A stretch of DNA of 35,157 nucleotides from a virus, in the IMG/VR virus record IMGVR_UViG_3300043411_000953, positions 1-35,157 of that record; one strand, given 5' to 3'. The notes under the pieces were generated by a model. That model made no database searches. It was not told where the DNA came from and worked only from the letters and a program-made list of their open reading frames with translations. This document shows, piece by piece, positions 5,893-27,997 of the stretch. Each line of letters starts with the position of its first letter. The stretch's first letter is position 1. The translations under genes were made by a program, and so were the position numbers.

Positions 5893-7199
<1,307 letters not shown>

Positions 7200-7463
7200 T
7201 TTTCCCTTTATTTGATGTTATTAGCCCTTTTTGAGGGGTGTTTTTTCTATAGATCCATAATAACTTAGAGGATTAAGATTGTCAAGTTATTCGTAAAACC
7301 CCTGGTAAATGTTGTTTTTTTAAAAACATGTTCTTACAGCCCCCCTCTCTTCTCTTTTTTTTATGTTTACTATAGAAAAGAAGTAATATAGGTAAAGGGG
7401 GGTCTGACCTGGGGGGATGGATTTTTTTTGATGTAAAAAAGCTGTAATGGCGCGGTAAAGTGG
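7200..7463. other. intergenic region, possible replication origin
   Basis: 264 bp between the primase and helicase genes with no ORF. It holds the helicase promoter, a weak AT-rich inverted repeat at 7313-7328 (TGTTTTT/AAAAACA), and G6 tracts at 7397-7402 and 7411-7416 flanking GGTCTGACC-like symmetry, plus a C6 tract at 7340-7345. Such G/C runs stand out in this AT-rich DNA. Location next to prim-pol and helicase makes an origin plausible, but no iterons are evident. Confidence 0.35.
7257..7285 (-). promoter_or_regulatory. sigma70-type promoter for helicase gene
   Basis: On the minus strand TTGACA (7285-7280) and TATTAT (7262-7257) are separated by exactly 17 bp. Transcription would start about 50 bases upstream of the helicase ATG at 7199. 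The -35 element is a perfect consensus. Confidence 0.65.
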
Positions 7464-8348
7464 TTAAAATGCGTCTACTGCGGCACGCAGTTCTTCGGTT
7501 GCTGGATCGGAGTACTTTTCGTGGACGTAATAGGCTTTTCGACGAATTTCTGAGAGTGTGTAAGGTTTTTTAGGGGGTTGCTCTAGTGCGTAGTAGATCG
7601 AATCTGCTTGTGCGAGTAGGGAATTTAGGCTGTGTCCGGCATTTACGAGGTTGATGAGAGTTTGGAAAACGAAAGAATCGCGACCGCCTATAGCTACTAG
7701 ACCATCCTCTGTGACGTCTGTGAAGCCCGTAGAGGAGTTTTCAGTGCCGTTTGGATAGTTTATACCTGTCGAGGAATTAAAGCTCTTAGAACGGCTTGTA
7801 GATGGGTTAGAGGGGATTGGGGGTAATTCGAGGAGTTCTGTGATTGTGGGGAGAGATGTGGGTACAAAGCGATAGTGTTTGGAAGGGGGGCATAAAGCAT
7901 ATCCTCGCTCTCCACGCAAATCTACGAAACCGGTGCTTAGATTTTTTACAGGGATTGTTGAGGGTAGGATGTAGTAGAAATGAAGTCCATCACGCGGAGT
8001 TGAAATTGTCACTGTGCGTGGTAATTTGGAAATAAATTCCATGTTTCGGGGTATATCGTCGATATCTATGATAACGAGTTGTTTTTCAGGGTTGTTAGGT
8101 AAAACGCCTGTGACAATTGCGAAATTACAATTCGAATTTTCAATTTGCGAAATTGTGGTTGAGGTATTTTCAGGAGGTGTTGTGTCATACCATTTTGAGT
8201 ACATAGGATGTTTTGCTGGACTTGGGCAATATTTTTTACGTGGACAATGACAAATTGTGATATCTTCTTCTGGGAAGTATGTTCCAGGCCAAACTGTGAT
8301 TATGCGGAGTTGGTATTCTAAAAATATTTTAAAGTATGGAGGTGTCAT
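7464..8348 (-). CDS. prim-pol primase (bifunctional primase/polymerase)
   Basis: 294 residues. The AEP-type prim-pol features are clear: an N-terminal VWPGTYFPE segment, a Cys-rich ICHCPRKKYCPSPAKHP stretch (residues 32-48), the catalytic D-x-D in VIIDIDD (D95, D97), STPRDGLHFYY (116-126) and VDLRGERGYALCPPSKH. The C-terminal 80 residues are a helical domain that in relatives links primase to helicase; here the helicase is a separate gene. Role: primer synthesis for phage DNA replication. The C-terminal linker contains SSTG motifs (FNSSTGINY, ENSSTGFTD). Start: AAAGGAC precedes the ATG. Confidence 0.9.
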   Translation of the reverse strand: MTPPYFKIFLEYQLRIITVWPGTYFPEEDITICHCPRKKYCPSPAKHPMYSKWYDTTPPENTSTTISQIENSNCNFAIVTGVLPNNPEKQLVIIDIDDIPRNMEFISKLPRTVTISTPRDGLHFYYILPSTIPVKNLSTGFVDLRGERGYALCPPSKHYRFVPTSLPTITELLELPPIPSNPSTSRSKSFNSSTGINYPNGTENSSTGFTDVTEDGLVAIGGRDSFVFQTLINLVNAGHSLNSLLAQADSIYYALEQPPKKPYTLSEIRRKAYYVHEKYSDPATEELRAAVDAF

Positions 8349-17573: not shown

Positions 17574-18065
17574 ATGGGCAAAATAAGACGTTATACAGAA
17601 CTTGGCATATTATGTAATGTTTGTAACGTAGATCAACCCTTAGAAAATTTTAGGTTAGATCGTGGAACATGTAAAAAATGTAGACATATGCAAGATAGAA
17701 AAGTACTTAATTCTAATATTGAAAAATTTATAGCTAGGTCAGTAGATGTAGCAAGATCACGAGCTAAAAAGAAAAATATACTTTTTGAAATTACTACTGA
17801 TTACATGCTTCAACAATATAACAATCAACAAGGTAGGTGCTTCTACACCGATGAAATAATGACATGGGGCTATGGAAATGGACGACTGACATCAGCACTT
17901 AGTTTGGATAAGATTATACCAGAATTAGGCTATGTATTAGGTAATTGTGTTTTTTGTTGCGATAAAGTAAATAAGTTAAAAAATGATTTACCCCTTGATG
18001 AGCTAGAAAAGTTAGACCCAGCAGAGTGGGTAAAAAGAGCTAAAAAACACATTCTAAAAAGCTAG
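17574..18065 (+). CDS. HNH-family endonuclease with zinc ribbon
   Basis: 163 residues. An N-terminal zinc ribbon uses CNVC (C14, C17) and CKKC (C33, C36), followed by a helical linker and an HNH-like nuclease core from about 80: GRCFYTDEIM, SLDKIIPELGYVLGNCVFCC and the VNKLKNDL helix. In many phage HNH relatives the first motif is 'S.DRI....GY...N....C...N..K', as here; the classical first His is not present, so activity needs testing. Likely a homing-type or free-standing mobile endonuclease. Its stop codon TAG belongs to a copy of the repeated AGCTAGAGTCAGCAGT motif. Confidence 0.8.
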   Translation: MGKIRRYTELGILCNVCNVDQPLENFRLDRGTCKKCRHMQDRKVLNSNIEKFIARSVDVARSRAKKKNILFEITTDYMLQQYNNQQGRCFYTDEIMTWGYGNGRLTSALSLDKIIPELGYVLGNCVFCCDKVNKLKNDLPLDELEKLDPAEWVKRAKKHILKS

Positions 18066-21460: not shown

Positions 21461-21751
21461 TTAACTCAAACAATATTCAATAATTTCAATCTGATCTATC
21501 TCAGGTATTAAATACCATAACCGGTCCATATTATCTACATCAAACATAGAAACTAACATCCACGCATTATCTCTGATGTTCTCCACATCCATAACGTACT
21601 TAGTTTTTCCTAAGTAATAATCAACACTCGTACCAACATTATATTGCCCCCACAGCTCAAGAGATTTACTTTTTATTATATTAAATATACTTTCAGGAGG
21701 TGTCTCATAGTACTTAGCACTAGACATATCCTCAAATAAAGATCTAAACAC
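21461..21751 (-). CDS. 96-residue hypothetical protein
   Basis: MFRSLFEDMSSAKYYETPPE then KYVMDVENIRDNAWMLVSMF and an end in IPEIDQIEIIEYCLS. Mixed alpha/beta, acidic. Its start overlaps the end of the HNH-like gene upstream by eight bases. No family recognised. Confidence 0.6.
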   Translation of the reverse strand: MFRSLFEDMSSAKYYETPPESIFNIIKSKSLELWGQYNVGTSVDYYLGKTKYVMDVENIRDNAWMLVSMFDVDNMDRLWYLIPEIDQIEIIEYCLS

Positions 21752-22343
21752 CCAACACCCTCTCTACAGGCCAACCTACTTTTACACGATACGCCAATGT
21801 CCCAACACCTATTCCAGTACGTCTTGACCATTCGGGCAAGCTCATAGTTTCACCACCATATTCTAACACAGTGCCGTGTCTAGATTCACCTCTTGTTCCC
21901 CAAAAACAATTACCTTTAACATAACCTAAAGACCAATCACGTCTACACAAAACTTTACCCATAGGTTGTGCCCCCATGTCTCTTCTGAAACTCTTATAAC
22001 TCACCCAGTCAACTTTTTCGCCACTTAGCTTCATATTCTGCCATACGCCATATTCTTTTTCATTAGTGATGTTACGTTTTTTACGCAAAGGTCCTCCGTA
22101 CTTAACCTTGCGATTCCAGTGACTTAGACATAAATCTACACCGAGTTCTTTTACCTTTTTTTCACAGCCTTCAATTACACATGCGCCCTTAAATTCTCGA
22201 ACCTTACCACGAAATATTTTATCTTTGTTATCAACGTGTACGATCATTCTGTGTCGCAGTGTGCTAACGCTTATATCTAGTTCTGCTGCCCAGGCATAAA
22301 TATTCTGTTTTGTACCTAAATATTCGTATTGTTTTCTGTCCAT
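21744..22343 (-). CDS. HNH-type endonuclease with NUMOD-like HTH modules
   Basis: 199 residues. N-terminal HTH-like module (YAWAAELDISVSTLRHRM, about 16-33), then a zinc finger ACVIEGCEKKVKELGVDLCLSH with the phage pattern 'C...C......LC..H..R...YG.P' and a core reading YGVWQNMKLSGEKV, SYKSFRRDMGAQPMGK, LCRRDWSLGYVKGNCFWGT, as in HNH/AP2-like homing endonucleases. A second HTH-like module (MSLPEWSRRTGIGVGTLAYR, about 167-186) closes the protein. These modules match NUMOD1-like DNA recognition units. Promoter at 22382-22410 and AAAGGATAGGAAA ribosome binding site. Confidence 0.75.
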   Translation of the reverse strand: MDRKQYEYLGTKQNIYAWAAELDISVSTLRHRMIVHVDNKDKIFRGKVREFKGACVIEGCEKKVKELGVDLCLSHWNRKVKYGGPLRKKRNITNEKEYGVWQNMKLSGEKVDWVSYKSFRRDMGAQPMGKVLCRRDWSLGYVKGNCFWGTRGESRHGTVLEYGGETMSLPEWSRRTGIGVGTLAYRVKVGWPVERVLGV

Positions 22344-23233: not shown

Positions 23234-25693
23234 ATGCAAGAAGAATTTATATTTAATACTCTTGAAAATGACTTTAAAGGATGGCAATCCTGGCCAGCCG
23301 AGCAAAAAAAGCGTCTTTTAGAGCGACTTCTATATGATTTTGACCTGTGGAGACTCCCTCAACAAGAAATCCCACCTGATTCTGAGTACAGATACTATCT
23401 AAACCTTAGTGGCCGCGGTGGGGCAAAACTGCTCTCTATCGACACACCTATTCTAACTACCAGTGGTTTTAAGACAATGGGCACTATTGAGCCTGGAGAC
23501 ACTGTTTTTGATGAAAGAGGAAATCCCACAACAGTCATTCATTGCTCAGAAATTCAATATGAGCCATCTTTTAAAATAACTTTTTCCGATAACTCGGTTC
23601 TTTACGCACATGATGGGCATCAATGGGTGACACTAACACATGCGGAAAGAAAAAAATATATCCGGTCAGATAGATTGAATTATAACCCTAATCAACCCCC
23701 TTTACCACTTAATTGGGCCAATAAACCCCCGATAACAACTCAAGAAATTATAAATACTTTTACACACTCGGCACGTAAAGATTTAAATCATTGTATCCCC
23801 CTCACTAAACCTTTACAATTTCCAGAACAAGACTTACCATTAGACCCTTATATTCTCGGCTATTGGCTTGGAGATGGTAGTAGTAGTGAATCCGCGATTA
23901 CCGTGGGTCCAGAAGATAGTGAATTTTTTATACATTACATGGAATTATTAGGATCAAAAGTTACTAAACGTAAGACATCTGAGGGCAAGGCACATTTATA
24001 TAAACTCGAAAAAAATAATGGAATATCTTTAAATCCAATACTTAAAGAATTAAATTTAATAAAAAACAAGCATATCCCAGAAATATATCTCCAAGCGTCA
24101 GAAAAACAGAGAAGGCATCTTCTTGCAGGACTCCTTGATTCAGACGGCCACGCCTCCAGAGATAAGAAACGTGCTCATTTTACAAACACTAACCATCGAC
24201 TCATAGAGCAAGTGAATTTTCTCGCTTTATCACTTGGATATAAAGCAACAATTACTGATCACCAAGGAATGTTGTACGGTGTAAAGAAAAAAATGGCATG
24301 GCAAGTTTCTTTCCCAGCAATTGATAATCCTTTTATTCTCCCGCGCAAAGCTCAAATAATAGATGATCAATTAATATCAAAACAACAGTCTCGTAACCAT
24401 CATAGAATGATTAAATCAATAATACCAGGGCCAGTCCTACCTATGAAATGCATCATGGTCGATTCCACCAACTCAATGTACTTAGCTGGAACTTCATTAA
24501 TACCCACACATAACACTAAACTATCTTCCGAAGAGATTAGAAAACGAGCTTTAGCAAAACCAGATACCCGCATAAACTTAATTGCTCCAACACACGGTGA
24601 TGCTAGAGATACAAATCTTGAAGGAGACTCAGGTATTATATCTGTCTGTGCTCCAGGAGAGATTAAAAAGTACTTAAAAAACCAAGGACAAGTTATTTTT
24701 TCCAACGGATCTCGTCTCTTAACATTTTCAGCACAAGAGCCTGAACGTCTTAGAGGTAAACAAAGTCACTATTGTTTCATGGACGAGTTCTCCTCGTTTG
24801 AGGAAAATACACAAGAGATTCTTACACAAGTACAGATGTCAAATCGTTTAGGTAATGACCCCAAAGTTTATATCACAACAACTCCAAAACCTTCTAAGAT
24901 ATTAAATGCTCTAATTGCACGACCAGATACTCACTTGGTTGTTTCGGGAACTTTAAATAATCCCTTCTTAGCAACAACACAAGTAAAAGAGCTGGTAGAG
25001 CGCTATGCCAACACTGCTATTGGTCAACAGGAACTTTTTGGACAGATTCTTACAGAGTCTAAAAACGCAAACTGGTCCCGCGCAATGATTGATGATTATC
25101 GCGTCACACAAGAAGAAGTTCCGGACTCTTTGCGAATAATTATTGCTATTGACCCATCATCTACAAATAATAGGCGATCAGATGAGTGCGGGATGATAGT
25201 TGCTGGTGTTTCAGCAGATAAACATTTCTATGTTCTTCGTGATCTCTCTATAAAAACGACACCACAGTTGTGGGCAAACAGAGCTGTTACAGCATACCGA
25301 CAATACAATGCTGCACTTATTGCTGTTGAAAAATCCGACGGTGATTTAGTTAAAACAATTTTAAAAAATATAGACGGCACAATCCCTATTCGCATGTTAT
25401 CTCACCAGAAAAAGGGTAAGACTATTAGAGCAGAACCCGTGTCGCAGTTATATCAACAGGGAAGGGTTCATCATGTTGGTTATCATAAACAATTAGAGGA
25501 TCAACTATGTTCAAAAGTCCCAGGAGATTCATCTTCAGACGATAGACATGATGCTTTGGTCTATGCTATTCGAGAGTTATCTAATACAGGGCAGGGAGGT
25601 GCTGTTATTTCTGCACGTCAAGCCAGGGCTAACCAAACTAGTAGTCAAGATGGTCGCATGCAAAATATTAGAAGAAGTCAAAGAGGATTTTAA
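23234..25693 (+). CDS. terminase large subunit interrupted by an intein
   Basis: 819 residues before splicing; the exteins join to about 457. N-extein 1-65 ends LSGRGGAK; C-extein resumes TKLSSEEIRKRALAKPD, so the Walker A motif GRGGAKT is rebuilt only after intein removal. Downstream are LIAPTHGDARDTNLEG, RLRGKQ, Walker B YCFMDEF, TTTPKP (motif III region), and the RNase H-like nuclease with IAIDPSS, AVEKSDGD and SSDDRHDALVYAI. Role: ATP-driven DNA packaging and genome cleavage at the portal. The unspliced form should lack ATPase. It starts the rightward packaging and head module; the ribosome binding site is weak. Confidence 0.93.
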   Translation: MQEEFIFNTLENDFKGWQSWPAEQKKRLLERLLYDFDLWRLPQQEIPPDSEYRYYLNLSGRGGAKLLSIDTPILTTSGFKTMGTIEPGDTVFDERGNPTTVIHCSEIQYEPSFKITFSDNSVLYAHDGHQWVTLTHAERKKYIRSDRLNYNPNQPPLPLNWANKPPITTQEIINTFTHSARKDLNHCIPLTKPLQFPEQDLPLDPYILGYWLGDGSSSESAITVGPEDSEFFIHYMELLGSKVTKRKTSEGKAHLYKLEKNNGISLNPILKELNLIKNKHIPEIYLQASEKQRRHLLAGLLDSDGHASRDKKRAHFTNTNHRLIEQVNFLALSLGYKATITDHQGMLYGVKKKMAWQVSFPAIDNPFILPRKAQIIDDQLISKQQSRNHHRMIKSIIPGPVLPMKCIMVDSTNSMYLAGTSLIPTHNTKLSSEEIRKRALAKPDTRINLIAPTHGDARDTNLEGDSGIISVCAPGEIKKYLKNQGQVIFSNGSRLLTFSAQEPERLRGKQSHYCFMDEFSSFEENTQEILTQVQMSNRLGNDPKVYITTTPKPSKILNALIARPDTHLVVSGTLNNPFLATTQVKELVERYANTAIGQQELFGQILTESKNANWSRAMIDDYRVTQEEVPDSLRIIIAIDPSSTNNRRSDECGMIVAGVSADKHFYVLRDLSIKTTPQLWANRAVTAYRQYNAALIAVEKSDGDLVKTILKNIDGTIPIRMLSHQKKGKTIRAEPVSQLYQQGRVHHVGYHKQLEDQLCSKVPGDSSSDDRHDALVYAIRELSNTGQGGAVISARQARANQTSSQDGRMQNIRRSQRGF
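23429..24514 (+). mobile_element. class 3-like intein with LAGLIDADG endonuclease
   Basis: Residues 66-427 of the precursor, 362 residues. Block A is LLSIDTPILTTSGF, beginning with Leu rather than Cys/Ser/Ala. Block B contains DGHQW with W131, block F contains MKCIMVDSTNSMYLAG with C406 at the place of the usual Asp, block G ends IPTHN with T425, and the +1 extein residue is Thr. This is the W-C-T signature of class 3 inteins, in which the block F Cys is the first nucleophile. LAGLIDADG motifs are YILGYWLGDG (about 206) and LLAGLLDSDG (about 296). Splicing in this phage is inferred. Confidence 0.85.
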
Positions 25694-27378: not shown

Positions 27379-27747
27379 GTGGACATTTTACCTGCCGATA
27401 TCTCACCAGCTCCTTGGAAATTTACACAAGGTGGTGTACCAGGCTGGAGAATTACAGACTCAAACGATGATTTAGTTTGTTTTTCAAAGGATAATCCATA
27501 TACAGCCCCAAACGCAGAATTTATTGTGTGGGCAAGAAATAAAATAGAAAATTTAATATACGAAAACGAAAAAATACGAGAACAAGAAAAAAGGATCATA
27601 AAAAAGACAACACAAATGCGAGAAATGTATGAAATACTCATACGAATCGAGCAGTGGCTTGTTGAATCTAACCAGCCTGATACTTATATACAAGAGTTTA
27701 AGAAGTTGTTTGATGATTCCGGAATTTTTAGAGAAAGCGCGTTGTAA
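27379..27747 (+). CDS. 122-residue protein, GTG start, actinobacterial type
   Basis: The start is GTG with no usable ATG before residue 78. PADISPAPWKFTQGGVPGWR then ITDSNDDLVCF and NAEFIVWARNKIENLI form a domain known in actinobacteria and their phages ('PW.......W.I.D......DA.FI..AR..V..LL'), followed by a coiled coil (KIREQEKRIIKKTTQMREMY) and an acidic end. Function unknown. It overlaps the WhiB gene by 35 bases. Confidence 0.6.
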   Translation: MDILPADISPAPWKFTQGGVPGWRITDSNDDLVCFSKDNPYTAPNAEFIVWARNKIENLIYENEKIREQEKRIIKKTTQMREMYEILIRIEQWLVESNQPDTYIQEFKKLFDDSGIFRESAL

Positions 27748-27997
27748 AGATTACGATATAAATCTTTTTTACCCCGAAAAGGACAATCAGCGCAAATTCC
27801 CACCTAAAATATATAAGAGTGCAAAAAATATTTGCTCTAAATGCCCTGTTCAATTCGAATGTCTTGAATATGCTTTAGAAAACTCAGAAATACTTGGTGT
27901 GTGGGGGGGAAAATCTCCTCCAGAACGCAAAACAATGTTTATAAAGTTATATGGGCATGAAGCTTGGACGGAGGCACGCAATGGGTTGCGGGTGTAG
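27713..27997 (+). CDS. WhiB-family iron-sulfur transcription factor
   Basis: 94 residues from MIPEFLEKARCK; a longer frame upstream overlaps the neighbour. Four Cys (C11, C41, C44, C50) with C-x2-C-x5-C and the GVWGG turn at 62-66 followed by a basic stretch (KSPPERKTM) are the full WhiB signature. Such proteins bind a [4Fe-4S] cluster and the sigma-4 region of the housekeeping sigma factor, and phage versions such as TM4 WhiBTM4 can inhibit host WhiB function. This gene is the best evidence for an actinobacterial host. It sits between terminase and portal genes. Confidence 0.9.
   Translation: MIPEFLEKARCKDYDINLFYPEKDNQRKFPPKIYKSAKNICSKCPVQFECLEYALENSEILGVWGGKSPPERKTMFIKLYGHEAWTEARNGLRV

Follow-up and report, generated by a model that had tools for sequence, protein, structure and literature searches.

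The terminase gene and its inserted element

The window analysed here is a whole linear IMG/VR virus record of 35,157 bases (IMGVR_UViG_3300043411_000953), which encodes on its plus strand, at positions 23234-25693, an 819-amino acid precursor of the phage large terminase (TerL) interrupted by an intein. The flanks of the precursor match the Pfam families Terminase_6N (4.5e-13) and Terminase_6C (1.1e-13) as well as PHROG terminase families, and its middle part matches LAGLIDADG_3 and Hom_end. Alignment to the intein-free TerLs Pan1, MW202777 and DSL-LC01 delimits an N-extein of 65 amino acids (23234-23428, plus strand) ending in the Walker A residues GRGGAK (residues 60-65, 23411-23428). The C-extein (24515-25693, plus strand), defined by Pfam matches and the TerL alignment, carries the remaining part of the ATPase domain, with the Walker B motif FMDEF, and the RNase H-like nuclease domain. 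The Walker B, C-motif and nuclease residues of intein-free TerLs are retained, and the Walker A, Walker B and RNase H-like nuclease motifs expected of a Terminase_6 large terminase are all present, the first of them as GRGGAK-T after splicing. The host protein is thus, by its sequence, an actinophage-like large terminase of the Terminase_6 type.

The insert lies between Lys65 and Thr428, whose codon starts at 24515, and comprises 362 amino acids (residues 66-427, from LLSIDTPI to LIPTHN; 23429-24514, plus strand), boundaries on which sequence matches, alignments, an AlphaFold2 model and Foldseek bear. It is almost certainly a class 3 intein, full-length and equipped with a LAGLIDADG homing endonuclease, that sits between the Walker A Lys and Thr of the terminase and is predicted to splice. 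A chance resemblance is excluded because the insert matches an intein-containing PHROG terminase family at 4e-32, LAGLIDADG_3 at 1e-13 and other inteins over their full length at up to 3e-80. The closest solved structures by sequence are the class 3 intein of M. smegmatis DnaB (6bs8, 3e-13) and the MchDnaB1 class 3 intein (6rix/6riy); matches to class 3 structures, from 3e-13 to 6e-12, cover both splicing halves, and the class 1 gp41-1 intein is matched at only 0.03. The Pfam family Intein_splicing (PF14890) had no match in this record, so scans based on PF14890 would overlook class 3 inteins of this kind.

The AlphaFold2 model, built from a 50-sequence alignment for the intein plus about 10 residues of each extein, has a pLDDT of 91.1 and a pTM of 0.91. 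Compared by Foldseek with the PDB, it resembles PI-SceI (6e-19), further VMA inteins, PI-PfuI, I-DmoI (2e-6) and the class 3 DnaB inteins (2e-6, with an rmsd of 1.0-2.1 across the N-terminal half). The modelled architecture is the expected one, a Hint domain plus a LAGLIDADG domain.

When the insert is removed, the terminase reads GRGGAKTKLSSEE and aligns to intein-free TerLs such as that of Pan1, GRGSGKTRTGAE. The loop was readable at 66 of the 80 search loci for intein-free relatives, and all 66 have an uninterrupted GRGxGKT. The Lys/Thr junction is the "classic" P-loop insertion site (PMC5050341), and the same TerL position carries a class 3 intein in eight viral contigs (L093-L098, L145 and L159), which, L159 excepted, form one group with the window intein (tree support 80, weak). 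The insertion into the Walker A motif, proposed in the earlier note, is borne out both by these same-site homologues and by the intein-free relatives, and its suggestion that the packaging ATPase would depend on splicing fits the positions of the Trp, Cys and Thr residues described below and the continuous loop of the relatives.

Class 3 residues and predicted splicing

In the field, class 3 inteins are recognized by Trp at B:12, Cys at F:4, Thr at G:5, a position 1 without nucleophile and Ser or Thr at +1 (PMC5050341, PMC5222942, PMC4031507), Cys being found at +1 solely in Bvi IcmO (PMC5222942). The window intein has the complete set. It starts with Leu66, that is without Cys, Ser or Thr; its block B, HQW (H129-Q-W131, 23618-23626, plus strand), provides His B:10 and, two residues further, Trp B:12, in alignment with the HQW of 6bs8; Cys406 (24449-24451, plus strand), the predicted first nucleophile, falls at F:4, opposite the block F Cys of 6bs8, 6rix and 6riy in the alignment; and block G, PTHN (residues 424-427), followed by Thr428 (together 24503-24517, plus strand), provides Thr G:5 (T425), His G:6, Asn G:7 (Asn427, the terminal residue) and Thr+1.

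These positions were compared by aligning the window intein with 159 relatives collected from contigs, viral and genome, and with 10 inteins of named phages. The relatives came from 80 viral and 80 genome loci, of which only one, truncated, was lost, so that filtering on the C-terminal motif discarded no alternatives. Full conservation (169/169) is seen for His B:10, Trp B:12, Cys F:4, Thr G:5 and the terminal Asn; position 1 is Ala in 133 and Leu in 13 of the 169, and the +1 residue is Ser in 116 and Thr in 53. In sequence and in fold the window intein clusters with class 3 inteins, in a tree whose deep branches are poorly supported. The residues and coordinates given in the earlier note were all correct, and its class 3-type assignment stands: same-site class 3 homologues exist, and the alignment to known class 3 inteins put Cys406 at F:4, not outside it.

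Several observations weigh against this assignment or against a working product. A Cys at F:4 is by itself also found in class 1 inteins (PMC4031507), so the assignment rests on the whole residue set and not on the Cys alone. Even the closest inteins, those of the L093 type, are only 42-45% identical to that of the window. Finally, the P-loop Gly preceding the catalytic Lys is replaced by Ala64 (23423-23425, GRGGAK-T), which could indicate an impaired ATPase; none of the 66 readable intein-free relatives has this Ala, and among the class 3 inteins Ala at -2 occurs in 6 of 169, the window included.

This unusual Ala64 beside the junction, together with Leu rather than the common Ala at position 1, would also suit a decayed intein, incapable of splicing, that leaves the terminase broken. 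We hold this to be very unlikely, since the frame is open throughout, the splicing and endonuclease residues are conserved, the catalytic motifs of TerL are intact, and both Leu at position 1 and Ala at -2 recur among the aligned class 3 inteins. Another alternative is a class 2-like reaction, in which Thr+1 would attack the N-terminal junction directly and Cys406 would be incidental. Class 2 inteins known so far are orthologues of KlbA and have Ala1, Ser G:6 and Cys+1 (PMC4031507), whereas the window intein has His at G:6 and the complete Trp-Cys-Thr set, and we give this possibility practically no credence.

Starting from the sequence, boundaries, residues, fold and same-site relatives described above, we infer from its class how the class 3 intein would splice, cut and home. 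Cys406, activated by His129, would attack the Lys65-Leu66 bond to form a block F branched thioester, from which the N-extein would be transferred to Thr428; cyclization of Asn427 would then release the intein, and an acyl shift would link Lys65 to Thr428 and restore GRGGAKT. Before splicing, the packaging ATPase would have no continuous P-loop. One could imagine that such splicing is conditional, a redox- or metal-sensitive packaging switch of the kind described for mycobacterial DnaB inteins, as the catalytic Cys class is common to MsmDnaBi1, presented as a stress sensor (PMC6195587, PMC7360933). This is improbable, since five phage TerL inteins assayed by others spliced fast (PMC5050341) and nothing in the window points to a switch.

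Putative homing endonuclease, possible mobility and neighbouring genes

The endonuclease domain contains two LAGLIDADG motifs: GYWLGDGS (residues 209-216, 23858-23881, plus strand), whose Asp214 is kept in 158 of the 169 aligned inteins, and LLDSDGH (residues 300-306, 24131-24151, plus strand), which falls within the LAGLIDADG_3 and Hom_end matches and whose Asp304 is kept in 164. With the acidic residues of both motifs kept and a matching modelled fold, the domain qualifies as a putative endonuclease, which would cleave terL alleles that lack the intein and spread the element through homing.

The relationships of the inteins do not follow those of their hosts. Despite carrying the closest inteins (42-45%), the L093-type TerLs are only about 30% identical to the window TerL; in contig L145 the TerL is closer (39%) and the intein less similar (39%); and the nearest TerL overall (L013, 43-44%) is intein-free. 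This mismatch suggests a past horizontal transfer of the intein and is not evidence of current mobility. The GC content of the intein (36.9%) is about that of the phage (36.1%). No near-identical pair with and without the intein was found, nor one of closely related contigs with TerLs above 80% identity, and ongoing homing is thus unsupported. The active mobility put forward in the earlier note receives only partial support, from the intact endonuclease motifs and the incongruent relationships.

Portal and major head proteins are encoded downstream of the terminase, so the region is the packaging and head module of a tailed phage. Between the terminase and portal genes lies an open reading frame (ORF) for a WhiB-like transcription factor (27629-27997, Pfam 3.5e-18), and this single gene suggests an actinobacterial host. 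On the minus strand, at 5922-8348, ORFs resembling a Prim-Pol primase and a D5_N/DUF5906 helicase constitute a replication module. Two further ORFs look by eye like HNH-type or homing-associated DNA-binding proteins: one at 17574-18065, with no Pfam match, and one at 21744-22343, with a sub-threshold match to HTH_30. A search of viral contigs by short peptide patterns returned no close relative of the whole precursor.

The orphan ORF P0002 (26634-27368, 244 amino acids) lies three small genes downstream of the terminase ORF and its immediate neighbour. By eye, its start, MAFAKGSTILTTKGLKKVEDL, and its end, HPMQCFYVKD, look like Hint blocks A and F. It could be read as a diverged Hint domain that stands on its own and has a Cys like that of block F (QCFYVKD), a class 3 intein remnant or derivative with a new role in the same phage. 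We find this idea improbable, and the comparison did not support it: the hhalign score of 15.8 lies among those of shuffled copies, which reach 21.7, and the AlphaFold2 pLDDT is 34. Family searches gave no match, and searches for relatives yielded none, their two pattern matches lying in unrelated short frames.

Relation to known class 3 inteins

The eight contigs with an intein at the same position resemble the window in their class 3 residues, LAGLIDADG domain and TerL site (LAGRGxGK^TR); their inteins are about 39-46% identical to that of the window and are preceded by GK, the window intein by AK. The TerL inteins of Clavibacter phage CMP1, Methanosarcina virus MetMV and Klebsiella phage fENko-Kae01 share the class 3 residues and the P-loop Lys^Thr site, but belong to different TerL lineages (CMP1 at 36% identity, MetMV and fENko-Kae01 on long branches). 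The MetMV insert (L007), on a very long branch, follows the P-loop Lys and has the class 3-type residues HLW, QCIKIS and ATHN^T, its sequence showing that the P-loop site and class 3 extend to archaeal viruses. Several public records, MetMV included, have class 3 inteins in the P-loop of Terminase_6 proteins. The mycobacterial DnaB inteins (6bs8, 6rix, 6riy) have the Hint fold, the Trp-Cys-Thr set and a P-loop insertion like the window intein; unlike it, they are mini-inteins without endonuclease, located in the helicase DnaB and followed by Ser+1. Among the mycobacteriophage inteins TerL1-a to -e and TerL6-f, all in the ATPase domain of TerL and some of class 3, TerL1-a occupies the Lys/Thr P-loop position, and TerL6-f lies in the C-motif, whereas the window has its intein in the P-loop of a Terminase_6 protein (PMC5050341).

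The earlier note was right, going by the title of Tori 2010 ("Bethlehem DnaB"), that class 3 was first described in a mycobacteriophage "DnaB". The 2016 survey assigned a Bethlehem intein (gp10) to TerL1 and cited Tori 2010 in that row (PMC5050341), so the intein on which class 3 was founded probably also resides in a terminase. Published class 3 and TerL inteins splice, and those of the BAKA and Bethlehem TerLs cut intein-free DNA (PMC5050341, PMC5222942, PMC4031507). Already in the literature are class 3 inteins in phage TerL and the rapid splicing of five phage TerL inteins (PMC5050341), as well as the Lys/Thr P-loop site and the activity of TerL homing endonucleases. To these the window adds one deeply branching member of the class 3 inteins in the P-loop of Terminase_6 TerLs, at a site where the relationships of the inteins do not match those of their hosts. 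It lends support to the published view that class 3 inteins are carried and spread by phages, and raises no new question.
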